Positions 657 through 25,400 of a DNA stretch of 39,066 nt are shown here, in pieces; positions within the stretch are counted from its first letter, which is position 1; every line of letters begins with the position of its first letter. This stretch comes from a virus, in IMG/VR virus record IMGVR_UViG_3300032070_000013, positions 1-39,066 of that record. One strand, written 5' to 3'. The notes beneath the pieces are model-generated. The model was not told the origin of the DNA. It saw only the letters and a program-made list of their open reading frames with translations, and did no database searches. A program made the translations under genes and the position numbers.

Positions 657-1058
657 ATGAAACCGACAAGAACAATTTTAAAGCCATTCAAGAACGAAAT
701 CCTAAAAGAGACTGCCCTGCATGGGCAACAGTCGGGGATAAGCCTCGCCAACAAACTTACAGGTTGCAAGGGTTATGGCTTTCAGCGATGGCTAGAGGAG
801 ACAACGGGCGATGAACACTTTGGCTTGCATCCTACGAATCCTAAATCTATCCGGTCAAATTATTGGCTTATTCGCCAGAAGATTGAGCAGGCATTTCTAC
901 AAAGCATATCTAACCTTGAAGCTATCGCTGATAAACAACGGGAGAATGAGGAACTAGAAAGAGAGATACGGCTTCTCAAGTGGAAACTAATGGAAGCCAG
1001 GAGACAGGGAGCACCGGCAAACGAACTTAAACTTGCGGAGGTTAGCCAATGGCAATAG
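657..1058 (+). CDS. Hypothetical phage protein with coiled-coil C-terminus
   Basis: The product is 133 residues of unknown function. Start ATG 657 is preferred over the in-frame GTG at 648, because the GGGGAGG ribosome site (641-647) abuts the GTG but lies an ideal 9 nt from the ATG. The N-terminal half is basic and mixed. Residues about 70-125 are rich in Glu, Lys, Arg and Leu in a heptad-like pattern, suggesting a helical coiled coil. It is the first gene of the long plus-strand early cluster and overlaps the next small gene by 10 nt. Confidence 0.75.
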   Translation: MKPTRTILKPFKNEILKETALHGQQSGISLANKLTGCKGYGFQRWLEETTGDEHFGLHPTNPKSIRSNYWLIRQKIEQAFLQSISNLEAIADKQRENEELEREIRLLKWKLMEARRQGAPANELKLAEVSQWQ

Positions 1059-1159
1059 CTTGGGGTTACTTATCTGAGCAAGAAATAATCCAGCTTCTTA
1101 CTTGGCGTCCAGAGCTTAAAGAGGATTACCTAAAGTGGAAGAGAGGGGAAGATGGATAA
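1049..1159 (+). CDS. Small overlapping hypothetical protein (36 aa)
   Basis: A 36-codon frame starts at ATG 1049 inside the end of the preceding gene and stops at 1159 inside the start of the next (ATG 1152). It encodes a charged peptide with several Trp residues. The double overlap fits translational coupling as used throughout this cluster, and GCGGAGG at 1035-1041 could serve as ribosome site. The function is unknown. Confidence 0.6.
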   Translation: MAIAWGYLSEQEIIQLLTWRPELKEDYLKWKRGEDG

Positions 1160-1460
1160 ATTCTGGATGTGCTATGTAGAGGGAACAATGGGATGCCGTT
1201 TTAAGCATCCTAATAGGGAACAGGCAGTTAAAGAAGCAGAGCGACTGGCAAGATTACGAGGCAATGAAGGTAAGCAAGTATTTATCTTAGAGACAACCGA
1301 TTATTGCCAAGCTCCATATCCTCTAGTAACTTGGTATAAATTCAATTTTAGTACTGACCAAGCACTAATTGACAGCAAGGTTGACCTATTCTACCGGGAT
1401 AAGACAGGAAAATTTAGGCGGTTAGAGCCTTTTTCTAGGATTGGCTTCGCTCAGGAGTAA
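1152..1460 (+). CDS. Hypothetical phage protein (102 aa)
   Basis: The product is a compact 102-residue protein with no recognised domain. GAGAGGGGAAG just upstream of ATG 1152 is the ribosome site, and the gene overlaps the preceding 36-codon frame by 8 nt. Residues 20-40 form a charged amphipathic helix (EQAVKEAERLARLRG). The rest looks like alternating strands with aromatic residues. The size and composition are typical of accessory early phage proteins, and no function is proposed. Confidence 0.75.
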   Translation: MDKFWMCYVEGTMGCRFKHPNREQAVKEAERLARLRGNEGKQVFILETTDYCQAPYPLVTWYKFNFSTDQALIDSKVDLFYRDKTGKFRRLEPFSRIGFAQE

Positions 1461-1463
1461 GGG

Positions 1464-1595
1464 ATGAGAATACAGGTAATAAGGATGGTAGGTAAAGCCG
1501 AGCAAGTCTTTAAGGTTTGGGCGTTACTGGTAAAACGCCGGGGTGGTGAAACGCTAGGAGAAATCATCAAGGAAAGGAATAAAGCTCATGGCTGA
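1464..1595 (+). CDS. Small basic hypothetical protein (43 aa)
   Basis: ATG 1464 follows the previous stop by 3 nt with a CAGGAGTAAGGG ribosome site. The 43-residue product is basic (VKRRGGETLGEIIKERNKAHG at the C-terminus, shown in part by LVKRRGGETL) and could bind nucleic acid. Its end overlaps the next small frame (ATGGCTGA). The function is unknown. Confidence 0.5.
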   Translation: MRIQVIRMVGKAEQVFKVWALLVKRRGGETLGEIIKERNKAHG

Positions 1596-1665
1596 GGAAA
1601 TTGTAACCGCATTGCTGGTATCCCCTCTATACAGGGAATCAGGATTTATGATGAGCCAATTTTAA
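1588..1665 (+). CDS. Very small candidate frame (25 aa)
   Basis: ATG 1588 overlaps the preceding stop as ATGGCTGA. AAGGAAAGG at 1570-1578 is a plausible ribosome site. The 25-residue product is not recognised. It may be a real small protein or the decayed start of a longer gene, since the following 80 bp hold only another fragment. Confidence 0.35.
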   Translation: MAEEIVTALLVSPLYRESGFMMSQF

Positions 1666-1684
1666 CTGTGAGTGCGAGAGACTA

Positions 1685-1738
1685 ATGCCAATCTATGAAT
1701 CAGAGGCGACAACTAGAGAGGACTTGTTTATTAGGTAG
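1685..1738 (+). pseudogene. 17-codon fragment resembling the start of the RecT-like gene
   Basis: The frame ATG 1685 to TAG 1736 encodes MPIYESEATTREDLFIR. Its first 14 codons match the start of the gene at 2188 (MFIYEDENHTREDL) at 10 of 14 residues, with many synonymous differences, so the duplication is old or the parent was a relative. The frame stops where the zinc-binding segment should begin. It is interpreted as a 5' remnant of a related zinc-ribbon or RecT gene. Whether it is translated is unknown. Confidence 0.5.
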
Positions 1739-1748
1739 AAGGTGAAAA

Positions 1749-2183
1749 ATGCCACTGGCTAATTATACAACAAGCGTTGAAGCAGCAAAGACGGTGGGGG
1801 AAATCCAGCATATTCTAGTGGCTCACGGAGCCAGAGAAATCCTGATGAATTACGGCGATGATGGCGTCATTGAAAGTCTTTCATTTATCGTCAATACCGC
1901 TCATGGGAATATGCCCATTAAACTCCCAGTCAGCATTGAGCCGGTGTTGAAGATTATGCAAAGAGACTCCAAGATACCGAATCACTTATGCAATAAAGAG
2001 CAGGCAGTGAGAGTGGCTTGGCGCATACTGAAAGATTGGGTGAGGGCACAGATGGCGATACTGGAGACCGATATGGTGAGGTTAGAGCAGATATTCCTGC
2101 CCTATATGATAACCCCAGATGGCAAGACACTTTACGAGAATATGGTGGATAAGGGATTTTACTTGACGGAAGGCAAGGATTAA
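1749..2183 (+). CDS. Conserved hypothetical phage protein (144 aa)
   Basis: The product is 144 residues with an AAGGTG ribosome site 7 nt before ATG 1749. The N-terminal half (about 1-60) appears to be an alpha/beta domain around a buried strand (IESLSFIVNTAHGNMPIKLP). Residues 85-130 form a helix with the pattern AVRVAWRILKDWVRAQMAIL, which recurs in small phage proteins of this type as I recall them. It sits directly upstream of the RecT-like gene, so a role in recombination or replication is possible but not shown. Confidence 0.8.
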   Translation: MPLANYTTSVEAAKTVGEIQHILVAHGAREILMNYGDDGVIESLSFIVNTAHGNMPIKLPVSIEPVLKIMQRDSKIPNHLCNKEQAVRVAWRILKDWVRAQMAILETDMVRLEQIFLPYMITPDGKTLYENMVDKGFYLTEGKD

Positions 2184-2187
2184 GAGG

Positions 2188-3258
2188 ATGTTTATCTATG
2201 AGGACGAAAATCACACCCGAGAAGACCTGCAAGAATTACGCAGGAGGAATTTGTGCAAGGAATGTGGCGGAAGATTAAATGTCTTCTTGGATATGGAAAC
2301 TCACAAGGCTTATCTAGCCTGCAATACTGACCAATCCCATGAGGGCATAGTGAGAGAAGCTAGCGACTACGAACAACGAGGGATGGAATCCCTTAATATA
2401 CCAACAAGGAGGAAAATCATGGAACAAGAATTTGGTGCGGAAAGGTCAAGGGCACTGGAAAGATTTCACGGTGTAACCGCATTGAGTAAGGAGCAAGCTA
2501 AGGAAATCCTGAAGACAGTCTATCCCAATGCTCCTGAGACTGAGATGATGCGGGCAGTGCTACTTTGTGCTAGTTACCATCTTAACCCGCTTATGGGTCA
2601 TGTCTTTCTCATTCCCTTCAAGGGAAAAGAGGGAACATCTTGGGCTACTGTGGTCGGGATTAAGGCTAAGAGGTTGGTTGCTAGCCGGAACCATGCCTAT
2701 AGCTATGTAGATGATACCCCCAGATTGATGAACGAGGAGGAGCAAATAAAGGTCTTTGGCAAGGTTGACACGGAGCATTTAGTGGCAATCACCATACTTC
2801 AAGACCCGCATACCGGTGCTACAGCCAGAGGTTACGGCAAGTGGGGGAAAAGCGAAACAGTCTACGGCACCGATAAAGGGAACAGCCAAGAGAATATGGC
2901 TTTTATTCGGAGTGAGAGTCAGGCTCTTGACCGACTTGCTCCCGGGGAAATGCCCATAGATGTTGAGGTTGTGGATGAGCAGTTTGTGGCTGGGGCTATA
3001 AAAGGCGGGGTGATTGAGGATGAAGTTGGAGATATAACTGAACCCGATGTGGCCAACACCAGACCTGGACCCACTGTGTCCAAGTCCGCTCCCAGCGACC
3101 TCAAAGAACTCAAGGATATGATGAAGTTATGCAATTGGTCGGCAAAGGATTTTGGGCAATTCTGCGTTAGCAAGAACTGGAAAATTAAGGTATATGAAGA
3201 CCTGAAGCCCGAGCAGATTACCGAAGCCATAGACTACATAAGCAAGAACCCAAAGTAA
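2188..3258 (+). CDS. RecT/Bet-type single-strand annealing protein with N-terminal zinc-binding motif
   Basis: The product is 356 residues. Residues about 23-50 carry LCKECGG and a second Cys/His cluster (CNTDQSHEG), a likely zinc ribbon. The central part, about 85-265, fits the RecT annealase fold: a helical start (TEMMRAVLLCASYHLNPL), then strands including ATVVGIKAKRLVAS and a late conserved APGEMPIDVEVVDE. RecT proteins anneal complementary strands during phage recombination and replication. The C-terminal 60 residues look like a separate small helical domain. It has no adjacent RecE-type exonuclease, although a VRR-NUC nuclease lies 2.8 kb downstream. RecT is a plausible agent for the short-homology rearrangements seen in this cluster. 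Confidence 0.85.
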   Translation: MFIYEDENHTREDLQELRRRNLCKECGGRLNVFLDMETHKAYLACNTDQSHEGIVREASDYEQRGMESLNIPTRRKIMEQEFGAERSRALERFHGVTALSKEQAKEILKTVYPNAPETEMMRAVLLCASYHLNPLMGHVFLIPFKGKEGTSWATVVGIKAKRLVASRNHAYSYVDDTPRLMNEEEQIKVFGKVDTEHLVAITILQDPHTGATARGYGKWGKSETVYGTDKGNSQENMAFIRSESQALDRLAPGEMPIDVEVVDEQFVAGAIKGGVIEDEVGDITEPDVANTRPGPTVSKSAPSDLKELKDMMKLCNWSAKDFGQFCVSKNWKIKVYEDLKPEQITEAIDYISKNPK

Positions 3259-3273
3259 CTTAACAACTGAATA

Positions 3274-3406
3274 GCTGGTGTCAGAGTACAGTGGAGAACT
3301 GTAATCCTGACTTAAATAGGGGGAACTAGCCAGCAAGCACCTGCCAGCCACCTGACTAGCTTCGGCAAGGTGAAAGTCCAACAAGATAACATGGCAGAGA
3401 TGCCAT
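3274..3406 (+). ncRNA. Candidate structured RNA between recT-like gene and 3436
   Basis: The 177-bp gap folds in several compatible stems: P1 GCTGGT/GCCAGC (3274-3279/3329-3334), P2 GTCAG/CTGAC (3280-3284/3307-3311), P3 ACAGT/ACTGT (3288-3292/3298-3302), P4 CACCTGCC/GGCA-A-GGTG with one bulged A (3338-3345/3364-3372), and P5 ATGGCA-GAGA-TGCCAT (3391-3406), closed by a GNRA tetraloop. The segment GGTGAAAGTCC at 3369-3379 reminds me of domain I of bacterial group II introns, but no domain V or intron protein is present. It may be an intron remnant, a leader of the next gene, or a phage RNA. Confidence 0.4.
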
Positions 3407-3435
3407 CTGTGAAGTAATCTGGGAGGTGATACAAA

Positions 3436-4044
3436 GTGAGCAACCGCAAAGATGAATTAAGGGAGAAGATAGAATTTCAGGTGGCTATGGCAATGAATAG
3501 TCAACTTGAGATTGAGAAAAGCACACCCGTATCAATAAGGACGGCGGAGTGGCAAGACAGAACGCACAAACTACGAAAGGATATTACCGCCCAAATCCTC
3601 CAAGCCATTAAAGAAGCTGGAATGGTAATGCTTGCCGAAAGTGGAGACCCAACATATACCCTAACCTGCGATAATTGCGGACAATCTTATTTAAGCCAGA
3701 TAGCTTTTCCCGCACATCAGCTATGTCCTGCTTGTAAAAAGGGAACGCCGAAGCAGGATGAGAGATTGCCCAAAGAAAAAATAAATGATATAGCGGAGAT
3801 AGTTGCCGAGATATGGCGAAGCGGAAAAGAAACCTCAAGAGAAGGATGGGTAGCTAGATTAGTAGGTATATTCCTCGCCCAACTCGCTAAAGCCGACCCC
3901 ATTATAAGGGCAGAGGAGAGGCGGGAGATATTTAATCTGCTTGAGGGATATAGAACAGGCGATAATGAGAAGGGAATGCTATACACAATACCCTTTCATG
4001 TTTGGAAAGAATTTCGGGAAGCCCTAAAACAAGGGAGGAGGTAA
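3436..4044 (+). CDS. Hypothetical protein with central zinc ribbon
   Basis: The product is 202 residues. The start is GTG 3436, chosen for its GGGAGGTGAT ribosome site 5 nt upstream. Residues 76-98 hold CDNCGQ and CPACKK, a four-cysteine zinc ribbon. It is flanked by a charged N-terminal helical region and a C-terminal region of about 85 residues with a helix resembling IAEIVAEIWRSG. The function is unknown. It follows the foldable RNA segment and precedes small genes leading to the replication pair, so a DNA- or RNA-binding role is conceivable. Confidence 0.75.
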   Translation: MSNRKDELREKIEFQVAMAMNSQLEIEKSTPVSIRTAEWQDRTHKLRKDITAQILQAIKEAGMVMLAESGDPTYTLTCDNCGQSYLSQIAFPAHQLCPACKKGTPKQDERLPKEKINDIAEIVAEIWRSGKETSREGWVARLVGIFLAQLAKADPIIRAEERREIFNLLEGYRTGDNEKGMLYTIPFHVWKEFREALKQGRR

Positions 4045-4047
4045 ATA

Positions 4048-4215
4048 ATGGCTGACTATTTTCTTTGGATAGCATACGGAATGGTTATGTGCGGATTTAT
4101 ATTCTGCTTATCTAAATTCCTAAAGACTGAAGGATGGCGCAATAGGTGGGGACTTTTAAGTATTTACTTCCTTGTGCTAACCATTCTAATCGGGAAGGAG
4201 GTGTTTCGTGGCTGA
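4048..4215 (+). CDS. Small two-span membrane protein (55 aa)
   Basis: ATG 4048 has a GGGAGGAGG ribosome site. The 55-residue product has two hydrophobic stretches, about 4-22 (FLWIAYGMVMCGFIFCL) and 34-49 (GLLSIYFLVLTILIG), separated by a basic turn (KFLKTEGWRNRW), so it is predicted to be a membrane hairpin. Its end overlaps the next gene by 8 nt. The function is unknown, and membrane-located early phage proteins of this size often modify host functions. Confidence 0.65.
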   Translation: MADYFLWIAYGMVMCGFIFCLSKFLKTEGWRNRWGLLSIYFLVLTILIGKEVFRG

Positions 4216-4429
4216 TATATTGTTGACAGATGAGGAACTAGATGATTTAGGTTATCCGATATTGCCATTGGGAGACAGAACGGGTAGCCGAAGAGTTGCC
4301 CAAGCTCAGATAAAGAAGTTTTTGGAGTGGCTAAAAATTCGTGCCTCTTTCCATTCCGATGACCATATGGCTTATATGCGCCTGTCGTGGAATGAGTGGC
4401 GGGAACTTGAGGAGATAGGAAGTGCCTGA
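4208..4429 (+). CDS. Small hypothetical protein (73 aa)
   Basis: Start GTG 4208 lies 6 nt after a GGGAAGGAGG ribosome site and overlaps the preceding stop. The acidic 73-residue protein is probably mostly helical (AQIKKFLEWLKIRASF). No domain is recognised. It overlaps the DnaD-like gene by 8 nt and may belong to the replication operon. Confidence 0.65.
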   Translation: MADILLTDEELDDLGYPILPLGDRTGSRRVAQAQIKKFLEWLKIRASFHSDDHMAYMRLSWNEWRELEEIGSA

Positions 4430-5171
4430 GCGAGGATTTGACACAGGTTTCTGGACTGACCCCTTCGTTGTTAAAGCAACTAAAGATGCCAAGTTTCTTT
4501 TTGCTTATCTTTGGCTAAATGACCATTGTAATCAGGCTGGATTATATGTAATTGCTCCTGGGACCATTGCTTCTGAAACTGGGATTGCCGAGGCAGACCT
4601 TCCTGGTCTCTTTGAACTCATAAAAGAAAAGGTCAAATGGTATCCTGAGGCTAATCTTGTCTGGGTTAAGAACTTCATTAAACGGCAATCCAAGTCCTCA
4701 AAGTTTGTGCAAGGAGCAGCTAAATGCCTCACCCGTCTAAATCATGATGAGGCTATTCAGGAGTTACTTGATTACAACCATAAGAGATACAGCATTGATA
4801 TACCCTATAAATACTATATGGAGAAAATCTCTATGCCTTCTCCCTCTTCCCCTTTAGAAGGGGAAGTGAAGGAACCCAAAAGTCCCGTTGCCACTGAAGA
4901 TATTATTGACCCCAAACTAGCAGCAATCGTTAAGAGCTATGAAGACAATATAGGCGTGCTAACTCCCGCTCTTTTTGAGCGATTAAAGGATATAACTGAT
5001 ACCTACCCGGAAGGCTGGTTTGAGAAGGCAGTTGACGAAGCCTGCCGGCATAACACACGCAAACTCGGATACATTGAAGCAATACTTGACCGATGGGAAA
5101 GAGAGGGAATTAAACCCCTTGAACCTAAAGAGAAATCAAACAAGGTTGGAGGACTGGAGGTAGAGGAATGA
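4422..5171 (+). CDS. DnaD-like phage replication initiation protein
   Basis: The product is 249 residues from GTG 4422, which lies inside the end of the preceding gene. The N-terminal 130 residues look like a winged-helix region of phage replisome-organiser type (FLFAYLWLNDHCNQAGLYVI). The C-terminal part, about 165-230, matches the DnaD/DnaB2 domain pattern (YEDNIGVLTPALFERL, YIEAILDRWEREGI). Such proteins bind origin or replication DNA and recruit the helicase loader. The next gene, overlapping by 4 nt, is that loader. The linker (about 138-160) is Pro/Ser-rich. Confidence 0.8.
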   Translation: MPERGFDTGFWTDPFVVKATKDAKFLFAYLWLNDHCNQAGLYVIAPGTIASETGIAEADLPGLFELIKEKVKWYPEANLVWVKNFIKRQSKSSKFVQGAAKCLTRLNHDEAIQELLDYNHKRYSIDIPYKYYMEKISMPSPSSPLEGEVKEPKSPVATEDIIDPKLAAIVKSYEDNIGVLTPALFERLKDITDTYPEGWFEKAVDEACRHNTRKLGYIEAILDRWEREGIKPLEPKEKSNKVGGLEVEE

Positions 5172-6028
5172 CACAACCAGACATCATAAAGGAACTGAGG
5201 ACCTGTAAGAACCCGAAATGCGGAAAGGAATATGAGGCAAGCATAATGAACCTCTTGGACGCAAAGATTGTCCGAGGTGGTGGTTACTGTCCTGATTGCG
5301 CTAAGAAACTCTTTGAAAGGGAAGAGGCTATGGAAAAGGGGATTATAACCCCAGAAGAAATAAACCGCCAGAGACGACTATGGCGATTAAGATGTGGCGT
5401 ACCGCCTAAGTTTGCCAATGAGGACTTCAGCACCTTTGAAAAGGATAGGCAGCCGAAAGCCTTTAAGAAATGCTGGGACTATGCCGAGAATTATCCTCTG
5501 GGTGCTCCCCAGAGTTATCCCTCTTTGGTGCTTTTCTCTGAACACTCCTGGGGAGTAGGCAAGACACATCTAGCCTGCTCAATAGCTCATCGGATTCTGG
5601 ATAAATGGAATGGAGAGAGGATTAACTGCCCGGTATTATTTATCTCCGAGCCCGACCTCTATATGAGAATACAGGCTACCTATAATTACTCGCTGGAGGA
5701 GAAATACTCCAAGGAAGATGAATCGGATATTATCAGTCATCTTACCAGCGCTGGGCTACTAATTCTGGATGATGTTGGCAAGAGACGAGTCCATGACCCG
5801 CGCTTTGTCCAGCGCATTATGTTCTCTGTTATTGACGGAAGGTATAAGGCAATGTTGCCAATAGTCCTAACGGCTAACCTAAACCCGGAGCAGTTGAAGG
5901 TCTATCTCGGTGGTGGGGAGAAGGATGAGGCATCTTTTGATAGGCTATTAGAGATGACTGGCGGTATGGTTAGACCTGGGGTCATTAGGTTCCTGAAGCT
6001 AGAAGGGGACAGTTTTAGGCGGAAGTAG
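5168..6028 (+). CDS. DnaC-like AAA+ helicase loader
   Basis: The product is 286 residues and overlaps the DnaD-like gene (ATGA). The N-terminal zinc-binding segment has Cys13, Cys18, Cys41 and Cys44. The ATPase core has Walker A GVGKTH (129-134), Walker B LLILDDVGK at about 194-202 and a sensor-1 TAN. The first glycine of the usual GxxGxGKT is His126, a mild departure. It probably loads the host replicative helicase onto phage DNA at a site marked by the upstream protein. Family: DnaC/DnaI/IstB-like ATPases. Confidence 0.85.
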   Translation: MTQPDIIKELRTCKNPKCGKEYEASIMNLLDAKIVRGGGYCPDCAKKLFEREEAMEKGIITPEEINRQRRLWRLRCGVPPKFANEDFSTFEKDRQPKAFKKCWDYAENYPLGAPQSYPSLVLFSEHSWGVGKTHLACSIAHRILDKWNGERINCPVLFISEPDLYMRIQATYNYSLEEKYSKEDESDIISHLTSAGLLILDDVGKRRVHDPRFVQRIMFSVIDGRYKAMLPIVLTANLNPEQLKVYLGGGEKDEASFDRLLEMTGGMVRPGVIRFLKLEGDSFRRK

Positions 6029-6322
6029 ATGGAGATTAAGATAACCGAGAAGGTCTGGGGGAGTCAAGTCAAGGACTTAACAAAGGTTCTTCACTGTGAG
6101 AAGTATTACCACCCCTTCCTTTCCACATGGAGTGAAAAGGGGTTCCCTGATTGCACTATTATCAAGATACCCAGATTGATATTCGCAGAGTTGAAGAGCG
6201 AAAAAGGTAAATTGACACCAGCTCAGGAAGAATGGTTGGAATTATTAAAGCAATGCAAAACGATAGAAGCATATTGCTGGCGTCCAAGTCAATTTGAAGA
6301 GATTGCGGAGATACTGAGATGA
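6029..6322 (+). CDS. VRR-NUC domain nuclease
   Basis: The product is 97 residues, the size of stand-alone phage VRR-NUC proteins. The catalytic PD-(D/E)xK pattern is visible: Asp41 in GFPD, then Glu54-Leu-Lys56 (FAELKSEKG), then a TPAQEEWLE helix starting at Thr63. These nucleases cut structured DNA such as Holliday junctions in the known members. The start directly follows the loader stop, and the end overlaps the next gene by 4 nt. It could partner with RecT in recombination. Confidence 0.85.
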   Translation: MEIKITEKVWGSQVKDLTKVLHCEKYYHPFLSTWSEKGFPDCTIIKIPRLIFAELKSEKGKLTPAQEEWLELLKQCKTIEAYCWRPSQFEEIAEILR

Positions 6323-6582
6323 GAGACGAACTAGGTGAAAAAGAGGAACGCATCTACGACTTCATTGCTGACTTCATCTCAAAGAACGCTTACTCACCAA
6401 GCATCCGGGAGATAGCAGAGGGATGCTCTATGAGCAATCTCGCTCAGGTAAGAACTAAACTACGCCGATTAAGACGGCTAGGAATGATTGATTACAAAGA
6501 CCAGCAACCGAGAACGATTACCTTGATTAGATATAGCTTGACCGAGAAGGGGAAGGAGGTACTAAGACGAACAAGACTTTGA
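6319..6582 (+). CDS. LexA-type winged helix-turn-helix protein without peptidase domain
   Basis: The product is 87 residues. Residues 5-70 follow the LexA DNA-binding domain pattern (IYDFIADFISKNAYSPSIRE, then a second helix pair and a basic wing), but the S24 peptidase half is absent and the protein ends after a short tail. It could be a repressor or adaptor that cannot self-cleave. The operators it might bind are unknown; the palindromes at 14880-14927 are one candidate. Confidence 0.75.
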   Translation: MRDELGEKEERIYDFIADFISKNAYSPSIREIAEGCSMSNLAQVRTKLRRLRRLGMIDYKDQQPRTITLIRYSLTEKGKEVLRRTRL

Positions 6583-6665
6583 TTGAGTGGGTCAATTATA
6601 AATCACCTAAAACGGAATTTGCCTTTAACGAGGACGGTTATTACAGGCAGGAGATGCCGGAGTGA
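6579..6665 (+). CDS. Very small coupled frame starting with TTG (28 aa)
   Basis: TTG 6579 overlaps the previous stop as TTGA, and the frame ends at 6665, overlapping the next GTG start. The 28-residue acidic peptide is rich in aromatic residues. The GGAAGGAGGT ribosome-like site is about 18 nt upstream, rather far. The perfect chain of overlaps favours a real gene, but the evidence is limited. Confidence 0.4.
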   Translation: MIEWVNYKSPKTEFAFNEDGYYRQEMPE

Positions 6666-6922
6666 TTTGCCTAGAAGTTAGGACACTCTGGCAGGGTAAA
6701 GTCGCCATAAGAGACCGGTATGTCAAGGAAGCAGTCTCTAAGAGAGAAGGGCTATTGATAAAGCACGGCGAAGATAAAATGGCCATCCCTTATAAAAAGT
6801 TGAAGGAGTCAATCGTTGGCAAGTCGGACCGACGGTTTCAGGACCAAATCGGCAGAGACTTACCACATTATCTGATTTATTTTCATTGGGAGCCGATAGT
6901 TAAACAAGGAGTTTTGTGCTAA
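6662..6922 (+). CDS. Hypothetical protein (86 aa)
   Basis: GTG 6662 overlaps the preceding stop and the end overlaps the next gene by 7 nt. The 86-residue basic protein shows strand-like N-terminal segments and a central lysine-rich helix (KMAIPYKKLKESIVGKS). It has no recognised family. It sits in the replication-accessory cluster. Confidence 0.65.
   Translation: MICLEVRTLWQGKVAIRDRYVKEAVSKREGLLIKHGEDKMAIPYKKLKESIVGKSDRRFQDQIGRDLPHYLIYFHWEPIVKQGVLC
6906..6921 (+). repeat. 16-bp direct repeat, copy 1 (ribosome site plus GTG start)
   Basis: AAGGAGTTTTGTGCTA occurs here and at 7477-7492. Here it supplies the ribosome site (AAGGAG) and the GTG start (6916) of the next gene. The two copies bracket that gene. 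Confidence 0.7.
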
Positions 6923-7497
6923 AGATGGATGTTAAAGAAATTGATAACCTAAACTCTGCCCTGGCTTTTCTTCGGCAATGCTCTACTGATATTCCATTAT
7001 TGTTACTATTCTCGGGCGAGGGTGAAAGCCTTATCTTGGCAAAGTGGTTAAAGCGCCACACCTACAATTTCGTTGGAGTATTCTGCGTTACCCGATACGG
7101 AATCTTCTGGGAAGTGGAGAGGGCCGCTACTCGGAGGTGGGCAGAGATAATGGGAGGGGGCAATCCCCTGCTTATCCTAGAAGTGCAGAACGAAGACCCC
7201 ACCACCTTGTTTTACTTCGGCCATAATTTCAGTATTTTAGGGGAAAAAGCCTACTACAATGCCAATCCTAATATAAACAAATTTGCCAGAGACAAAGATT
7301 TTCGCAATATTGTAATGGGCTTCCGCCGAGATGATATATTTCGGCATTTTTACCGGAAAGATGATATTAAAAGAATCACCAAGACCTTTGATAGAGAGAT
7401 AGCCCAATCGGGGAAAGTCCCTACTGAGACTAGCCGCACCATCTGGTTCCCCTTCTATGATATGAAACAGGACCTAAAGGAGTTTTGTGCTAGATGA
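6916..7497 (+). CDS. Hypothetical protein (193 aa), possibly a degenerate PAPS-reductase-like fold
   Basis: The product is 193 residues from GTG 6916, with AAGGAG 4 nt before. A hydrophobic strand followed by SGEGESLILAKWLKR (33-47) resembles the SGGKDS loop of the PAPS reductase/N-type ATP pyrophosphatase fold, but the key residues are not conserved, so this is only a structural guess. The rest is mixed alpha/beta with many aromatic residues. An alternative reading is a phage-specific protein of unknown fold. Confidence 0.65.
   Translation: MLKMDVKEIDNLNSALAFLRQCSTDIPLLLLFSGEGESLILAKWLKRHTYNFVGVFCVTRYGIFWEVERAATRRWAEIMGGGNPLLILEVQNEDPTTLFYFGHNFSILGEKAYYNANPNINKFARDKDFRNIVMGFRRDDIFRHFYRKDDIKRITKTFDREIAQSGKVPTETSRTIWFPFYDMKQDLKEFCAR
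7477..7492 (+). repeat. 16-bp direct repeat, copy 2
   Basis: This is identical to 6906-6921. Here the embedded GTG (7487) opens only an 11-codon frame, while the annotated next gene begins at ATG 7494 in another frame. The repeat therefore looks like a copied translation start. Confidence 0.65.
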
Positions 7498-7757
7498 AAT
7501 ACCACCGATGGGAAAAGGTTGAAGGAAACTTTCGCTGCAAGCGTTGTGGTGTTTACCAACGGAAGAAATACCCTAGAGTGGTTCACTGCCCACCAACCTT
7601 ATTAGAATTGTCGCTTCTAAATGCCGCCAGACTCTTTTACGCCATACTCTATACTCGGATACAGCAAGGCGGGTTATCGGCGATTGACTACGGTAATTTA
7701 AAATTCCCGCTTTCGTTCACTCAGCAATATGAGACCTTGAAAAGAGATATGAGATGA
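7494..7757 (+). CDS. Chimeric small protein: zinc-binding N-terminus fused to a portal segment
   Basis: The product is 87 residues. The N-terminal part has CKRCGVYQRKKYP and a later HC, a possible zinc site. From about residue 43 to 70 the protein is identical to residues about 319-347 of the portal protein (NAARLFYAILYTRIQQGGLS and following), because 83 bp (7619-7701) are an exact copy of 18251-18333 in the same reading frame. The last 17 residues are unrelated to the portal. The gene overlaps both neighbours (ATGA type). It is either a recent natural chimera or an assembly artefact, and function cannot be assigned. Confidence 0.55.
   Translation: MKYHRWEKVEGNFRCKRCGVYQRKKYPRVVHCPPTLLELSLLNAARLFYAILYTRIQQGGLSAIDYGNLKFPLSFTQQYETLKRDMR
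7619..7701 (+). repeat. Exact 83-bp copy of an internal portal-gene segment
   Basis: Every base of 7619-7701 matches 18251-18333 in the same orientation and frame. The identity stops abruptly at both ends: T versus A on the left, and AA versus CC on the right followed by TTCCC in both. Confidence 0.97.
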
Positions 7758-7972
7758 GTGATAAGACAGGCATCAATCTAATTACTATCCAGGTTACACC
7801 TCTACAGGCCGCTTTACTTGATTGGGCTAAGACCCACCCCTACGGCAAGCTGAGAGAACTCCAGTTCCAAGATGGTGTGCCGGTTAGGGCGGAGATGTAT
7901 TCTGATGACGGCACAGGCACGGAGATAGTTCTGTTTGACAAGATAGCGCGGAAGGCAGGACTGATTAAGTAG
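7754..7972 (+). CDS. Hypothetical protein (72 aa)
   Basis: The product is 72 residues, starting in an ATGA overlap with the chimeric gene. Residues 12-40 contain a helix-strand unit (LQAALLDWAKTHPYGKLREL) and acidic turns. No domain is recognised. The next gene starts right after its stop codon. Confidence 0.7.
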   Translation: MSDKTGINLITIQVTPLQAALLDWAKTHPYGKLRELQFQDGVPVRAEMYSDDGTGTEIVLFDKIARKAGLIK

Positions 7973-8284
7973 ATGAAATTCCACCTAATTGATATTGTGG
8001 AGTGCGGAGATAGGCGGTATGAGGTTAATACTATCGGGATGGGCGGACTTGCTCAATTTTTTGACCCGATGCTTAAATTGCGTAATGACCTTTTCGGGAT
8101 TAACGGATGCGCTGAAACAATGATATGGGAGGTAGATGCCGACAATAATCGCAAGGATAAAATTCTCCACTGCCAGCGTTACCGCAAAATGGTTAGTGCC
8201 GTTAAGGGGCATACAAAGATAGTTAACTGGCTAAAGAATGGGTGTATTGACTTCTTTAATGGAGATGGCTTTCCGCAAAAATGA
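7973..8284 (+). CDS. Hypothetical protein (103 aa)
   Basis: The product is 103 residues, with ATG 7973 immediately after the previous stop. It contains three scattered Cys and a C-terminal helix (MVSAVKGHTKIVNWLKNG). No family is recognised. Its stop is overlapped by the ATG of the 13-codon methyltransferase-start remnant at 8281. Confidence 0.65.
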   Translation: MKFHLIDIVECGDRRYEVNTIGMGGLAQFFDPMLKLRNDLFGINGCAETMIWEVDADNNRKDKILHCQRYRKMVSAVKGHTKIVNWLKNGCIDFFNGDGFPQK

Positions 8285-8322
8285 AATTCTTTAAGGATAA
8301 TCACTGGGGGATATTGTTATGA
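8281..8322 (+). pseudogene. 13-codon remnant of a DNA-methyltransferase start (copy A)
   Basis: The frame MKFFKDNHWGILL begins in an ATGA overlap with the upstream gene and ends in an ATGA overlap with the deaminase gene. AAATTCTTTAAGGATAATC matches copy B (9014-9032) with one difference. MK(F/P)FxDNLIYNGD is the typical beginning of phage N4/N6 amino-methyltransferases, by recall. The remnant may still couple translation of the neighbours. Confidence 0.5.
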
Positions 8323-8699
8323 ACTGGAATAATAAAGAATTGCTTAAAAGGGCTTGGCTTGCAAGGGAAAACGCCTATCCTTGGAAATCCGCAACCAAAG
8401 TGGGTTGTGTGTTACAAATGACGAATGGCGATATTTATTCGGGATGGAATATTGAGGGGTTATGGATGACAAGTATTCACGCCGAAGTTTGCGCCATAAG
8501 CCACATCGGAAATTATAAAGATAAAATTAAAAAAGTTGTCATAGTTGCCGAGGTTGGATTTTTTACGCCTTGTGGGGCTTGCTTGGATTGGCTTATCCAA
8601 TTTGCCGAGGAAGATTGCGAGATAATTATTCAAAACAAAGACCGAATTATTTATAAGTTTGGATTGGGGGAATTATGCCCACACTACCCAAAAAAATGA
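8319..8699 (+). CDS. Cytidine/deoxycytidine deaminase family protein
   Basis: The product is 126 residues, the size of tetrameric cytidine deaminases. The zinc-dependent active site is complete: His54-Ala-Glu56 (SIHAEVCAI), Pro84-Cys85-Gly-Ala-Cys88, and a C-terminal LGELCPHYPK like the family's LLPHxF tail. The first ligand is His, as in HAE-type deaminases, rather than the Cys of most Cdd enzymes. The likely reaction is hydrolytic deamination of a cytosine nucleoside. Its place among methyltransferase genes suggests nucleotide-pool or DNA-base modification, which is an inference. Confidence 0.8.
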   Translation: MNWNNKELLKRAWLARENAYPWKSATKVGCVLQMTNGDIYSGWNIEGLWMTSIHAEVCAISHIGNYKDKIKKVVIVAEVGFFTPCGACLDWLIQFAEEDCEIIIQNKDRIIYKFGLGELCPHYPKK

Positions 8700-9007
8700 A
8701 AATATTGATAGCTTGCGAGTTTAGCCAAGTAGTATGTAGAGTCTTTAGAGATAGAGGGCACGATGCTTATTCTTGCGATTTACTTCCCACCGAGGGCAAT
8801 CCCGATTGGCATATTCAAGATGATGTATTAAAACATCTGAATGAAGGTTGGGATTTGATGATTGCCCATCCGCCATTGATGGCAACTTATATTCATACGG
8901 GGAGAATACCTAGGATACACCACGAACCGCCAGGAGAAAATCAGGCTAAAAATCGCAGTAGAACCTATTATGGTATAGCGGAAGCAATGGCAAAACAATG
9001 GGGATAA
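8696..9007 (+). CDS. Internally shortened methylase-like protein (103 aa)
   Basis: The start ATG 8696 forms an ATGA overlap. An in-frame ATG at 8675 with GGGGG upstream is possible. The N-terminus MKILIACEFSQVVCRVFRDR, then DLLPTEGNPDWHIQDDVL and WDLMIAHPP, matches a common phage protein usually near 200 residues with a methylase-like fold. The ending (RSRTYYGIAEAMAKQWG) matches that family's C-terminus. About 100 middle residues are missing, and the expected Cys after HPP is Leu. The protein is probably a deletion product and inactive. Confidence 0.6.
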   Translation: MKILIACEFSQVVCRVFRDRGHDAYSCDLLPTEGNPDWHIQDDVLKHLNEGWDLMIAHPPLMATYIHTGRIPRIHHEPPGENQAKNRSRTYYGIAEAMAKQWG

Positions 9008-9064
9008 GTTATAAAATTCTTTAAGGACAATCTAATCTATAATGGGGACGCAAGGGATATATGA
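9008..9064 (+). pseudogene. Remnant of a DNA-methyltransferase start (copy B)
   Basis: Directly after the preceding stop, in the same frame, the bases read IKFFKDNLIYNGDARDI and then TGA at 9062. The ATG has become ATA at 9011. This is the best preserved of three copies of a methyltransferase N-terminus (the others are at 8281 and 12695). The cytosine methyltransferase gene starts one base after it. Confidence 0.55.
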
Positions 9065-10267
9065 ATGGACATCAGATTTATAGATATGTTCTGCGGGATA
9101 GGAGGATTTAGGCTTGGATTGGAAAGGGCGACCGAAGAAAGGGTTTTGCGACAATCGGGTTTGCACCGATGTAGCTCCGACCTTAATGAGTGCAGGCAAT
9201 CCGATGGGGAAGCACCAAGCGGGGATAGGGGCGAGAAATCCTTTGGTTGTGTCTGGTCAAACGACAATAACAAATACGCCTGCCGAATCTACCGAAAGCA
9301 CTTCGGGGAAATCTGTGAAGGGGACATCAGGGCAGTTGATGCTGATGCCATACCAGAACACGACCTCCTCTGTGCGGGATTTCCTTGCCAGAGTTTCAGT
9401 ATTGCTGGAAAGCGGAGAGGATTTGAAGATACTAGAGGCACACTCTTTTTTGAGATATGCCGAGTCCTTCGGGCTAAAAGACCTAGTTATCTTCTCCTTG
9501 AAAATGTCAGGGGACTCCTATCACACGACTTGGGGCAGACATTTGAGGTCATCCTCTCAAGCCTTTCTGAACTTGGGTATGACTGCCAATGGCAGGTGCT
9601 TAACAGCAAGGACTTCGGTGTTCCGCAGAACAGGGAGAGGGTGTTCGTTATCGGACATACTAGAGGAAAGTCCAGACCCGAAGTATTTCCTCTCAGAGAA
9701 GATGTTGAAGGGTTTGCTGAAGGGGCAAATGAAACCGCAACTATTAGAACTTTGCAGGGCGGGGGACATAGCGGAGGGCATCATTCGGGAATGACAATAA
9801 TTGATATTTATAATCAGGGCATTAGGGCTAATCAAGAAGTGGCTGGAGCATTGAAAGGCGAAGGTATAGCGAATACCTCTTTGGGGACAGCATTGATATT
9901 TCACGAAAATATATCAGGCAAATGGACACCGCACAAAGAGGCGCAGGCGTTAAGGAGTGGGGCAAGCCATAATTATCAGACACTAGAGATTGCTAACGCC
10001 CTAGATGCTGATGGCTATTTAAGAACTGGTGCAAGACCCAGAGACGAAAATGGCAAACCACAATTACTACCAATCGGCTATCGTAGAATAAGGCGACTAA
10101 CCACCCTAGAGTGTGAAAGATTACAAGGATTTCCCGATGGATGGACAGAAGGAATATCAGATACGCAAAGATACAAGTGTCTCGGAAACGCAGTAACGGT
10201 AAATGTAATAGAGGCGATAGGCAGACAGTTTTTGCTTGCCCTTGAAAGAAATAAGGGGATGATATGA
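9065..10267 (+). CDS. dcm: Cytosine-C5 DNA methyltransferase
   Basis: The product is 400 residues. Ordered motifs are FCGIGGFRLGLE (motif I, 9-20), FPCQSFS with catalytic Cys108 (motif IV), ENVRGLL (VI, 146-152), QNRERVFVIG (VIII, 188-197), a variable target-recognition region to about residue 335, RRLTTLECERLQGFPDGW (IX) and a final LGNAVTVNVIEAIG (X). It transfers methyl from SAM to cytosine C5, likely protecting phage DNA from host restriction. An extra segment of about 37 residues (23-59) separates motif I from SNDNNKYACRIYRKHFGE, where relatives continue directly. A long second frame (9114-9794) lies inside it. Confidence 0.9.
   Translation: MDIRFIDMFCGIGGFRLGLERATEERVLRQSGLHRCSSDLNECRQSDGEAPSGDRGEKSFGCVWSNDNNKYACRIYRKHFGEICEGDIRAVDADAIPEHDLLCAGFPCQSFSIAGKRRGFEDTRGTLFFEICRVLRAKRPSYLLLENVRGLLSHDLGQTFEVILSSLSELGYDCQWQVLNSKDFGVPQNRERVFVIGHTRGKSRPEVFPLREDVEGFAEGANETATIRTLQGGGHSGGHHSGMTIIDIYNQGIRANQEVAGALKGEGIANTSLGTALIFHENISGKWTPHKEAQALRSGASHNYQTLEIANALDADGYLRTGARPRDENGKPQLLPIGYRRIRRLTTLECERLQGFPDGWTEGISDTQRYKCLGNAVTVNVIEAIGRQFLLALERNKGMI
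9114..9794 (+). other. Long +1-frame open frame nested in the C5 methyltransferase gene (226 codons)
   Basis: Frame 9114-9794 is open for 226 codons in a different phase from the methyltransferase. Two parts look like protein families I recall from phages. An early piece (CTDVAPTLMSAGNPMGKHQ) resembles the variable region of C5 methyltransferases. The end (GCSLSDILEESPDPKYFLSE) resembles stand-alone phage proteins found near such genes. The conserved methyltransferase motifs of this region are in the other frame, so expression here is unproven. It is reported as a possible overprinted gene. Confidence 0.25.
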
Positions 10268-12292: not shown

Positions 12293-12698
12293 ACGCGAGT
12301 ATTACAAGTTTAATGAGCTTAATTTTAGTAGTCGCCAAATGCTCTGGCTCATTAAGCATCTGCCGACTCTTAAAGAAGGGCGGTACCCCCCGGACCCGGT
12401 GGGCGGCTCTAGTTATGTTGACCTCCAAGGGAAGAAGGCGGTAAGGCATAGGGCTACCTTTGAAAATCCAGTTCTTATCGCTGCCGAGGTAGAAGCAAGG
12501 CTGGCGATGTGCGGACTGGACGGCTTAATATTAAAGGCGGTTACTCTATGGGAAGAGAGCATTGAATATTTATCGCGGTGTCTAGGTATATCAGAGGACA
12601 TAATCATAAAGCGGAAGTCTAAGGCGCTGGGGTTTATCTCAGGCTGGAAACGGAAAAGAATTTCATATCGGGAATGGATGGGACATAGAAAACAATGA
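12285..12698 (+). CDS. Sigma-like/ArpU-type late transcription regulator candidate
   Basis: The product is 137 residues, starting in an ATGCTTGA overlap. The C-terminal half resembles sigma-70 region 4: helices over about 75-125, with a turn at LGISEDIIIKRKSKALGFIS and a basic recognition segment. Phage regulators of the ArpU/late-activator kind sit at the end of the early region and switch on packaging genes, as this one does. The gene is the last plus-strand early gene before a convergent terminator. Confidence 0.6.
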   Translation: MLEREYYKFNELNFSSRQMLWLIKHLPTLKEGRYPPDPVGGSSYVDLQGKKAVRHRATFENPVLIAAEVEARLAMCGLDGLILKAVTLWEESIEYLSRCLGISEDIIIKRKSKALGFISGWKRKRISYREWMGHRKQ

Positions 12699-12736
12699 AG
12701 CCATTCTTTGAGGATAATCTAATCTATAATGGGGCT
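12695..12736 (+). pseudogene. Remnant of a DNA-methyltransferase start (copy C)
   Basis: ATG 12695 overlaps the regulator stop (ATGA) and reads MKPFFEDNLIYNG before losing similarity. Over ATTCTTT-GGGG it matches copy B with two differences in 33 bp. The downstream frame runs through the terminator and the antisense of the minus-strand gene, so the rest of the original gene has been deleted. Confidence 0.55.
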
Positions 12737-15573: not shown

Positions 15574-17034
15574 ATGACCTCTGAAACAGTAATTTCAGAT
15601 GCAGAATTAAAATCCTTAAAACGCCGTGAAGAAGCCAGGCTAAGACCTGACTGGTGGATAGAGAACATACTAGGATGCCAGCTAACGATACAAGAAAGGG
15701 AGCTAATAGAGTTAGTGGCGAGTTCCCCCAGAGTGGCGGTAAGGAGTTGCACGGCGAGTGGCAAGACCTGGACAGCGGGTAGGCTGGCGTTGTGGTTTTT
15801 GTGCAACTATAAGCCCAGCATAGTCCTAACAACAGCCAAGACATTCAGGCAGGTAGAGATTGAGATATGGAAAGAGATATGGACGGCATACAAGGGTAGT
15901 AAGTTCCCGTTAGGGGGAAGGTTACTAGCGACAAAGCTGGAAATGGATAAGGAATGGTTTGCGCTGGGGTTCAGCACAGATGATGCCGAAAATGTCCTGG
16001 GTATGCACTCGCCGAATATTCTAATAATAATAGATGAAGCACCAGCGATACCAGACACGGTTTATGATGCAATAGAAACACCGATGAGTACGGGGTATGC
16101 GAAGCTAGTGCTTTTGGGCAACCCCACTCAGCCCATTGGCAGATATAGGGATACTTTTGACTCCAACCTCTACAAGCACTTTCATATCTCGGCGTTTGAT
16201 ACACCGAACTTTACTGTCTTCGGAATAACGCTGGACGATATAAAGTCCGGGGCATGGAAAGATAAAATCGGCATAGCCCAATGGCAGATTGAAGACGGCT
16301 CTTGGCTCAAGAGGTTACCCCACCCTTATCTTATAACTCCGCTCTGGGTGAAGGAGAGACTGGATGCCTGGGGCGAGGGTTCACTCTCGTTTCAGGTCTA
16401 TGTCATGGGCAATTTCCCGGAGAAGGGCGTTAATAACCTTTTCAACCTACCGGAGGTTGAGGCAGCCATAAATCGCAAGGTTAATGATGAAGGGGAAGTG
16501 GTGGCTGCTGAAGATGTGGCCCGGTATGGCGATTGTGAGACTGTCTATGGCGTGAGACGAGGAGAAAGAGTCCTGAAAATAGAGACCTGGGGACATGAAG
16601 GCATCCATTACACAACGGGGCGGACTGCGCGGCACCTGAGAGAAGACAATCCCTCAATCATTCACATAGACGCTGGGGGTATTGGTGTTGACGACTGTGA
16701 GATTCTTGAAAAAGAAGGTTTCAATGTTAACCGGGTGCTATCAAATGCGCCAGCAGTGGACAAAGAGAGATTCCTAAATCGGCGGGCTGAACTTTACTGG
16801 CTATTATCAAAGAGATTTACCGATGGCAAAATCAATATCCCAAAAGATGAGAAACTAAGTGGTCAGTTGACCGATATACGATTTACCTTCAAACAGGGCA
16901 AGATGGCGATGGAGACAAAGGAAGAGATGAGGGCTAGGGGTTCAAAGTCCCCAGACCGAGCCGATATGCTTGCGATTCTTTTTTCTCCTGAAGAGGTTAT
17001 AGACACAAAGGCACCGGAACCATGGAGATGGTAA
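15574..17034 (+). CDS. terL: Phage terminase large subunit
   Basis: The product is 486 residues, the normal length. The ATPase half has Walker A SCTASGKT (58-65) and Walker B ILIIIDEA with Asp154-Glu155, followed by a GNPTQ coupling motif (182-186). The nuclease half has the RNase-H-like acidic residues Asp314 (AEDVARYGD), Asp366 (IHIDAGGIG) and Asp464 (DRADML). It powers DNA translocation into the prohead and cuts concatemers. It follows a short leader after gene 15043, not terS, which is an unusual arrangement. Confidence 0.93.
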   Translation: MTSETVISDAELKSLKRREEARLRPDWWIENILGCQLTIQERELIELVASSPRVAVRSCTASGKTWTAGRLALWFLCNYKPSIVLTTAKTFRQVEIEIWKEIWTAYKGSKFPLGGRLLATKLEMDKEWFALGFSTDDAENVLGMHSPNILIIIDEAPAIPDTVYDAIETPMSTGYAKLVLLGNPTQPIGRYRDTFDSNLYKHFHISAFDTPNFTVFGITLDDIKSGAWKDKIGIAQWQIEDGSWLKRLPHPYLITPLWVKERLDAWGEGSLSFQVYVMGNFPEKGVNNLFNLPEVEAAINRKVNDEGEVVAAEDVARYGDCETVYGVRRGERVLKIETWGHEGIHYTTGRTARHLREDNPSIIHIDAGGIGVDDCEILEKEGFNVNRVLSNAPAVDKERFLNRRAELYWLLSKRFTDGKINIPKDEKLSGQLTDIRFTFKQGKMAMETKEEMRARGSKSPDRADMLAILFSPEEVIDTKAPEPWRW

Positions 17035-17294: not shown

Positions 17295-19031
17295 ATGGCT
17301 GACGAATATAAACGGGTAGAGGAAAAGAAGAAAGACTTTACCGACCTCAACGCCAGGAGGGATAAGGACAAAGACCTTTACTTTATGAAGGCTTACCAGA
17401 TGATGCGCCTTGATAACCCATCAATAGCGATGGACAATGTAATCAATGTTACCCTCAATGACCCAACCACCTTCGCTATGCGTGCCATAGCCATTCTAGG
17501 GACTACTGAAAGACAGACAGTGGTTGAAGGGCGCGGGAGAGAGGATAAACAGAACACTCTCATTGAGAACTTCATTGACGATATAAGTTTCGTCGTAGAT
17601 GATTGGTTAGCCAATCAGGGTATTCTATCTTTAGATTCCTTTCTCAATGAGCAGTTCTGCATCAGGGGGACTGGAGTTGGGCGATGTTGCCTTCGTGAAG
17701 AGGAAAAGGATGGCAAGCGTGTTCTGGTTCCCGATGTCATACCTATAGATTCTCGCTTTGTTATTTATGATATGGACAGAAACGGCTTGAAGTGGGTTGC
17801 TCCTACCTTTAAGCGTGGCAAAGAGGATATTAAGGATGAGTATGGAATTACGATTACGGGTGAGGAAGGTGAGGTAATAGACTTCTGGGACGCCCAAAAT
17901 AATGTCATCTTTATTGGCGGGAAAGAACAAAAGAGGCAGAAAAACCCATACGGTTATCCGCCTTTTATTATTACCCAGACCCCTGCGGGTTCCATGCTTG
18001 CCGATAAAGACGCTTACCAGCATAGAGGGGAAAGTATCTTCTGGGCAAACCGAGATTTATTCCCTGAACTAAATAGGACAGCCAGCATCTTCCAGACACT
18101 AAATGTCGCCGCTTTTCGTCCTGGCTTACAATATGCCAGTAAAGCAGGTACTAAAGCCACAAAACCCAAGAAACCATTGCCTGGGGTTGATTTTGTTGTT
18201 CCCGTTGATGAGGGTGGTGGCTTCAAGTCAATGCCTATAACTGATATACAAAATGCCGCCAGACTCTTTTACGCCATACTCTATACTCGGATACAGCAAG
18301 GCGGGTTATCGGCGATTGACTACGGTAATTTAACCTTCCCCCTACCGGCAGTGGCGATTGCTCGGCTCACTTCTTCCCGCGACCAGATATTTCTTCCCCG
18401 AATACAGGGGAAGGCTATCTTCTACCAGCAACTCTTTAAGATGCTCATTAAACAATACCAGTTGGTTAATATCAAGGCTAAACTCGGTCAAGAAGGATGG
18501 ACAAAGGAATACAATCCAAAAGACCTTGAGGGCGATTATCAAATTGAGTTCAGGTTCTTCACCGAGTCCAAAGAACAGGAGATAGCCAACTACTCAGTAG
18601 CCAATGCTGCCAAAGGTTTCCTCTCTGAATCTACTATCAGGCGCAATATTCTCAATGTACCCGACCCCGAAGCCGAAGAGGAGAGGATAGCGATAGAACA
18701 AGCGGAGAAGGTGGATGAAGCCCTATTCCTCTACAATCGGTGCAAATCGCTCATTTTCCAAAGCAGGGTTATGGAATATAGAATACTGAAAAATAGATTG
18801 ATAGGGATATTAAAGGCAAGGCAGGGATTGGCTCAGTTGCCTACTGAAGACCATAGCAAAAAACTGGGCAAACCCGGGGGCAGGCAGATAATACCCCTAC
18901 TCGGTCAAGGCGATGCTGGCGGGACAGTAGCCCCAGAAGTCGGTACTGAGGAAGAGGAAATAGCAAAAGCCCAGAGAAAAGAAGAAACTACTGCCGCGGT
19001 TGGAACGGAAGCAAAACAAGGGAGAATATAA
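17295..19031 (+). CDS. Portal protein
   Basis: The product is 578 residues with a GAGGAG ribosome site. It was identified by position between terL and scaffold/capsid, by size, and by a portal-like pattern. There is an N-terminal helical region, a central part with strands (DVIPIDSRFVIYDMDR) and a long helix region after 350 (KAIFYQQLFKMLIKQYQLVN), with a charged disordered tail rich in Gly, Glu and Ala. Portal dodecamers form the DNA gate of the capsid. Residues about 319-347 are copied exactly in the small gene at 7494. Confidence 0.85.
   Translation: MADEYKRVEEKKKDFTDLNARRDKDKDLYFMKAYQMMRLDNPSIAMDNVINVTLNDPTTFAMRAIAILGTTERQTVVEGRGREDKQNTLIENFIDDISFVVDDWLANQGILSLDSFLNEQFCIRGTGVGRCCLREEEKDGKRVLVPDVIPIDSRFVIYDMDRNGLKWVAPTFKRGKEDIKDEYGITITGEEGEVIDFWDAQNNVIFIGGKEQKRQKNPYGYPPFIITQTPAGSMLADKDAYQHRGESIFWANRDLFPELNRTASIFQTLNVAAFRPGLQYASKAGTKATKPKKPLPGVDFVVPVDEGGGFKSMPITDIQNAARLFYAILYTRIQQGGLSAIDYGNLTFPLPAVAIARLTSSRDQIFLPRIQGKAIFYQQLFKMLIKQYQLVNIKAKLGQEGWTKEYNPKDLEGDYQIEFRFFTESKEQEIANYSVANAAKGFLSESTIRRNILNVPDPEAEEERIAIEQAEKVDEALFLYNRCKSLIFQSRVMEYRILKNRLIGILKARQGLAQLPTEDHSKKLGKPGGRQIIPLLGQGDAGGTVAPEVGTEEEEIAKAQRKEETTAAVGTEAKQGRI
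18251..18333 (+). repeat. Source copy of the 83-bp portal duplication
   Basis: This is identical to 7619-7701. Because the portal frame is intact on both sides of the segment here and it fits the protein, this copy is taken as the donor. Confidence 0.95.
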
Positions 19032-25200: not shown

Positions 25201-25400
25201 ATCTCGGCTTGCCTAAAGGACAGGCTAAACTAGATTTTAGAGTCCAGCATCCAGAACTTGATGGTTGGTTGCTCTTAACAAAGAAGGTTACTAAGGCAGC
25301 CACAGACCGAGGTAAGAAGGAAGCCAAGAAGACAGAATGGGAGAAATTGGAAGAGAAGAGACGGTTTGAAGAGTGGCTTAAAGGATTGATGCCCAAATAA
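19206..25400 (+). CDS. Giant polyvalent-type virion protein (2064 aa)
   Basis: This is the largest gene of the window. Several hydrophobic or membrane-like stretches occur in the N-terminal quarter (APGTLAILAGMVLSAVTE, SNALLFIPVGKVL). Residues about 1265-1440 match, as I recall it, the large polyvalent protein domain LPD38 (FGKARIGNLRIDPWGGAQQF; STTTGAEYPLNIL). The C-terminal 450 residues carry at least nine short (N/H)P(E/N/D)-type repeats such as FLETHPEL, FLKSNPEY and FRVQHPEL, with an isolated WLSKHPELE near residue 300. Polyvalent proteins are packaged and injected with the DNA. It could form the internal ejection conduit. A tape-measure role is less likely given its position before the scaffold. 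Confidence 0.7.
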   Translation: MSNGISELLKSYGTSLGETRKLMPLLTEEMTKQKEARLALPQVPEFFTPAEVGGLGLTTETGEPFKLDEGWLLKMTPGANGAEPVMSFITPEKWEITQDQTYISPEGQRFTQEEIQTQIETPEIPLQVEDVFGKVFPTGYSGKDIEQTLTWLRGTGGWYGERDWVAEARQQEFAQAIWAIGRTEDTESLLSGLGMKPEEITQFFAPAPTTVPEESKAKDIWDTARVAFTNIAYQTKQFFVGTLPNLLFRDIKPGDPVWDQRTGRNIPCPPEQVAAYNEKSKTSRDQYRQTYTKNEQQHQDWLSKHPELETRPEWQGNIIDTIKNHPEVARDWGYWANQLAAGAPGTLAILAGMVLSAVTENPLPLIASITALTPAQIEEDKDLMLAHGATEDQAAKLGTAVGIASNALLFIPVGKVLNGLKPEAMTLFKRTATEEIANLTAKSVLKQGLKQFGETEALFTVFGVAQQAIQNAAIKLLDTKQDLFAGIGNAAISSMVQGLPLAVFGAAGKMINVSKENAALVPDAQKKAEGWIQDPQTKDWLKPIREFITEERGGIELPPKAMADFNKFIEWARKEGIPVRDLTVTPKIEETLRAVEEASGGVREAYEAQAKIEGLKEWLSTEPATKLVNLIKKTGWYKGEVGNLSKEQYQNITGKEPSASILGKETQVITEKAHTTKAGEFVPEKTYKTTKEVVRWEYALDDVATEMGYESGDALKVAIEGVGKAQTTIKELQTEIATIETKTPLPALPEPISEKVAVIPTGGKALTPAQVSRTLELFGKYIEDSSTLNAWELTRQLRTETRSGRAELLKVRVQELIVQEGISAEDAMKRAISETLSGKLPVVKTDYVSDLTDRMRDVLFNKVYQVLRDEPFEMASTVTALTNALTGKAIPREPGVKGGSAYTRLERVFGDQPEVLKSIDKMASEQKPLEKVAEDLFTEVIVAGEESIPVDRGTAEYLNKLKDIPNGYKTFFEPDFEMPRASDLRTPAEVEYAQAKLKLAIDFSEGKITKDAYDIAVLEAREKAYPTPPVTKYEAPIEDAIKQIPLWPTPARDAVIRVLKEMAWSPVDIGGFIKANKSSFDMSYPRQVAPFIPGHPTEFVLSMVDAFKATFSQKSTEASWVRITHDPLYAIYDALQSKLGRDFLRPPDMPKGTKQYKGVEEFGYLFPDRLIPKLTAKIPWVKLSNRGFVTGCNSDLWRIFENTYKGALREGEKYASGELKLERGKAFDIMKIMDAEATRLADWSGRASLGPLQKAAPILGNILYAPRFAWGRAIGWRQLFSSNSYVRKQAWRDATILVGTVGGALVLGNQLGWWDLETDRNSADFGKARIGNLRIDPWGGAQQFFVFFSRVFDLVTAPITGKTAMGKSTTTGAEYPLNILNVGENFLKSKEAPMVGLLLEYVTGKTYSGEEVDVKNLQQWADRISPMALMDAYEAFAEKPSSAIPAGILSFFGLGVQTYTGDWKENIPKLGLPKYSDNLYYGMTKPVYDWADFYSDTASQFKGVDPATLTEAKGYPPKVRLIVETARSLEESNIIPNVKLISMNADPDKGKTYVDNYKIWQERQKIIASGDEKALKAFDADERNNQAYLGNISQRQFALLSEYWAITDKTKQAEFLETHPELSQNSREEWLKSHPEENAKQALAGKAKLMTQKAYDIAQKLIKDYDIPDSAVTSYLPPQDVAKAYFERIEIVDKWGANSWEDKLLRAKNPNLVKWLNESGNPLDEVDTPIASLELKTNPKFREIYDKIESFSDEDSPDFKDDKIKDKNGLTERDRAVAELKATMIEDDLTYRDTERKIEAIEKGTNENPVDDKLVNAHIEFMRIQDKEGIGSTSAEVMLYRVDNPEYNAWRMDKNIWGDNALKPVDETRIPIWRIDVKWQEQDKQYDAIEGETSEGKQQRQAFLKSNPEYADDRLRRDAYGKDFPTPLIETYVEYYKIPDKSTDDWYKEHPSESYYEDDWFLMEHPDFYKAMFKLGIWTEPRDFTKVPSREVYRLYRTYLGLPKGQAKLDFRVQHPELDGWLLLTKKVTKAATDRGKKEAKKTEWEKLEEKRRFEEWLKGLMPK

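Follow-up and report, generated by a model that had tools for sequence, protein, structure and literature searches.

How does a piece of a phage portal gene come to lie, letter for letter and in frame, within a small early gene 10.6 kb away? The question is raised by one virus record, taken from a metagenome collection (IMGVR_UViG_3300032070_000013), whose whole stretch of 39,066 bases is referred to here as the window. A sequence-only reading had claimed that bases 7619-7701 equal 18251-18333 without a single difference, in common orientation and reading frame, and this is borne out: a base-by-base check gives 83 identical bases out of 83, both copies lie on the same strand and both are in codon phase 2 of their open reading frames (ORFs), that is, (7619-7494) mod 3 and (18251-17295) mod 3. 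The exact match ends at both borders, left and right. It is the sole direct repeat in the window that is longer than 19 bp, the length of the runner-up, and a chance origin is out of the question. Among 84 other viral loci (1.18 Mb), two contain an exact direct repeat of at least 30 bp with a spacing of more than 1 kb, the longest being 58 bp; this baseline is a rough one, since many of these loci are barely longer, or are shorter, than 10.6 kb. A third near-copy at 23685 was discarded, as it amounts to 15 exact bp, which is at chance level given the size of the window. A diversity-generating retroelement was rejected as well: with zero differences in 83 bp there are no adenine-biased changes. 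No reverse transcriptase was recognised when the ORF list was inspected by eye.

Table 1. Coordinates in the window of the features that bear on the repeated segment
Feature	Coordinates	Strand	Basis
RecT-family annealing recombinase, candidate copying agent	2188..3258	+	Pfam RecT, E 3.3e-8
Recipient small gene, 87 codons	7494..7757	+	ORF listing
Native N-terminal part of the recipient, CxxC...HC zinc-ribbon-like pattern	7494..7618	+	Homologue searches negative
Exact 83-bp copy of portal codons, NAARLFYAILYTRIQQGGLSAIDYGNL	7619..7701	+	Sequence identity
Right edge, worn or microhomologous, FPLS; 10/14 bases as in the portal of the nearest relative (G001)	7702..7715	+	
C-terminal tail, clear portal similarity absent; doubles as leader of the next gene	7716..7757	+	
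Portal protein gene of the donor family, 578 codons	17295..19031	+	phrog_64 portal, E 1.4e-5
Donor-type copy of the 83-bp segment	18251..18333	+	Identical in G001 portal

The identification of the larger gene as a portal gene (PHROG 64) follows from the profile match and from its place beside the large terminase gene: it is preceded by a terminase-like gene with a weak Pfam match (15574-17034), and three of the five aligned family members also match phrog_64. No member of this portal family was found in bacterial genomes. The structure model of the portal is poor (mean pLDDT 38), and the 83-bp segment could not be placed on it. The segment falls in a part of the portal that is conserved across the relatives of this group, and wherever relatives carry it, it lies in the portal, with no second copy elsewhere. 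For this reason the direction of copying, from portal to small gene, as had been claimed, is well supported.

The recipient ORF overlaps both its upstream and its downstream neighbour by ATGA and is open from one overlap to the other, the following gene starting at 7754; a ribosome-binding-like AAGGAG lies upstream. The protein that it encodes, of 87 residues, is not itself a portal. Of the zinc-binding start that had been attributed to it, the C-x2-C ... H-C pattern is present in the first 42 residues, but profile searches returned no family above its cutoff. Convincing relatives of the N-terminus were found neither in phages nor in viral contigs or genome contigs, and the neighbouring genes, used as anchors, led to no sister genomes, the search with the DnaC-like gene giving just one relative at 32%. 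The proposed comparison of relatives carrying the zinc segment with and without the insert thus yielded none of either kind.

How old is the copy, and which allele was its source? The nearest relative, IMGVR_UViG_3300036760_000421 (G001), has a portal gene that is 98% identical in DNA; 18 of 1,056 bases differ between the two portals (1.7%, or 2.6% per synonymous site). At this divergence, a random 83-bp piece would show zero differences with a probability of about 0.24, and the G001 portal is also identical to the early copy at all 83 positions. The absence of differences therefore sets a loose bound on age, limiting divergence only to below about 3.5%, and "very recent" copying, as inferred at first, is an overstatement. 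The sole portal difference nearby is at position 18345, where the resident gene has C while both G001 and the early copy have T; the early copy accordingly has the serine codon TCG of G001 in place of the resident CCG. The donor may perhaps have been an older allele, or that of a relative, rather than today's resident one, a suggestion that rests on one base.

The two edges of the segment differ. On the left, the transition is abrupt and portal similarity is nil beyond 7619, whereas on the right 10 of the 14 bases past 7701, encoding FPLS, match the G001 portal (shuffle p about 0.0003; 32 of 38,628 control positions score as well). The statement that the rest of the two genes is unrelated thus holds on the left but has to be relaxed on the right, as far as 7715. 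When the segment is counted as 97 bp, all four differences from the G001 portal are confined to the final 14 bp, a clustering with p about 0.0003 under uniform change, and two of them are silent (CCC/CCG, CTA/CTT). Either the segment is about 97 bp long with a worn right edge, or copying stopped at an imperfect microhomology. Homologous or homeologous phage recombination would be accompanied by flanking similarity on both sides. Since such similarity is restricted here to 14 bp of the right edge, illegitimate or microhomology-driven copying is preferred.

The reading that we favour, and hold to be rather probable, is that of a genuine, one-off ectopic copy of 83 to 97 bp of portal DNA into the early gene, probably near-neutral. 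Most likely, the copying would have proceeded by template switching or by annealing-driven illegitimate recombination during replication, with a portal gene as donor that belonged either to the phage itself or to a close relative sharing its cell. At its right end a short imperfect match (TTCCC-CT-TCG) may have been used, or the end may later have been worn down. The insertion could have survived because neither the reading frame nor the translational coupling with the following gene was disturbed and because it lies behind the small N-terminal motif; in itself it is probably functionless. Among the routes listed by the sequence-only reading (RecT-mediated, template switch, other, artefact), the first gains some substance from the RecT-family protein encoded in the window, although one sequence does not permit a choice between them. 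Such recombinases are of relaxed fidelity, the annealing types working with short and diverged matches, and minimal pairing lengths are 23-27 bp for Red-beta and 31-34 bp for RecA (PMC3945230).

Some observations sit uneasily with this explanation. The insert is seen in one contig, and the early gene was found in no relative, with or without it. The clustering of the four differences is left unexplained if one simple copying event was followed by evenly spread mutation. Finally, an 83-bp direct repeat is an expected substrate for deletion, yet it is retained in the assembled consensus.

The foremost alternative, an unlikely one, is an assembly or amplification artefact in which chimeric reads or a strain-mixed assembly put portal sequence into the early gene. 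The window being a single metagenomic record, it speaks for such an artefact that the junction is absent from every further record searched, and that the G001 record itself has the look of mixed strains or of an unrolled circle, which is a warning for the assemblies of this group. Against this, a mix-up at a repeat swaps flanks only and cannot make a second copy, and a wrong pairing of flanks is disfavoured because the portal copy matches G001 on both its left and its right side, across about 1 kb at 98%; the early copy would thus require flanks of its own. Moreover, strand, frame and both gene overlaps are intact at the insert, and a clean chimera would not predict a partial match past the right edge. 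Chimeric reads may still lie behind the insert, but most likely it is present in a real genome.

That same partial match, with its four changes of which half are silent, would be accommodated by gene conversion, which is less probable again than an artefact: an older and longer piece of portal, already residing in the early gene, would have had its first 83 bp overwritten later from a portal copy. The length of the repeat, above the published pairing minima, is compatible with this, as is the serine codon that the early copy has in common with G001. However, the additional similarity extends over just 14 bp and is nil on the left, and a microhomology at the switch point is the simpler account. 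A functional capture, in which the early protein would mimic the portal and display a portal helix as a decoy that delays or poisons ring assembly, either as a timer for the phage itself or directed at co-infecting relatives, is very improbable: prediction from the one sequence places a helix at residues 36-58 with fair confidence, and the segment is portal-conserved, but the chimera has no homologue and is conserved in no relative. The birth of a gene by fragment capture, as proposed initially, found no backing in the searches, in which conservation and homologue were both absent; the 87-residue chimera might possibly be such a case.

The early region contains further signs of patchwork. An exact 16-bp direct repeat, AAGGAGTTTTGTGCTA, made up of a ribosome-binding site plus start, occurs at 6906-6921 and 7477-7492 and brackets the gene 6916-7497 at both ends in a cassette-like manner. 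Patches of about 30 bp at gene junctions are common to the window and G001 in otherwise different genes, those of 28-34 bp including 8302-8329 and 10234-10267, and a leader (K)FFKDN(LIYNG) is repeated at gene starts (8281-8302, 9011-9047 and 12698-12734, and also 23075-23110 of G001). The protein encoded by 8675-9007 has 110 residues and matches DNA-methyltransferase-like phage proteins, about 185 residues long, at either end, with an in-frame loss of about 75-80 residues from the middle. These signs of patchwork speak for the copying proposed above for the 83-bp segment. In the C5-methyltransferase gene 9065-10267 (Dcm), about 20-45 residues near residues 23-60 form a hypervariable insertion, which is also present, in a different form, in the displayed relatives from many viral contigs; as the variable stretch lies at the same place, the idea of a second pasted fragment was dropped, and no support was found for an other-frame resemblance to a methylase in this gene.

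Outside the early region, the portal gene is directly followed by a giant gene of 2064 codons without a family match (19206-25400), whose counterparts at the same place in relatives range from 1948 to 2816 codons. In G001 the giant-gene region occurs twice, once near either end of the record (984-7789 and 37678-44578; L015 and L017), with 91.5% identity between the copies, each of which adjoins a different portal, and this doubling seems to reflect a strain mixture, an unrolled circle or a duplication. Towards the right end of the window, 37522-38532 encodes a cysteine peptidase of the papain family (Pfam PF00112, E 5.4e-11).

Partial gene duplication can yield chimeric genes and has been described chiefly in eukaryotes. 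As there, part of one gene lies here in frame within another; unlike there, the donor piece is very short and a kept function is improbable. Another parallel is provided by the domain mosaicism of phage proteins, in which a near-identical piece is common to two otherwise different proteins (PMC10684548). That survey deals with protein families across phages and with regions of at least 50 residues, whereas here 27-32 residues are involved, within one genome, with a portal and a very small early protein as partners. Recently emerged mosaicism is defined there by an identity of at least 70% over 50 or more shared residues that make up no more than half of either protein; the present segment is 100% identical, but its 27 residues (32 if FPLS is included) fall short of that length. 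Illegitimate or relaxed, Rad52-like recombination (Red-beta, RecT, Erf) also generates patchwork without long flanking homology, and the RecT-family gene of the window is a trait in common with these mosaic-making systems (PMC3945230, PMC2327257). The exchanges described for them take place at matching regions of two genomes, in contrast to a copy at a non-equivalent place, within another gene.

The feature most likely adds one more case to the known mosaicism of phages, and as one event it leaves the picture of that mosaicism unchanged. Since the direct repeat is longer than the pairing minima published for recombinases, its stability in the population could be measured. If real, it would represent an ectopic, in-frame templated insertion in a phage genome, an early step by which small genes may gain foreign pieces.
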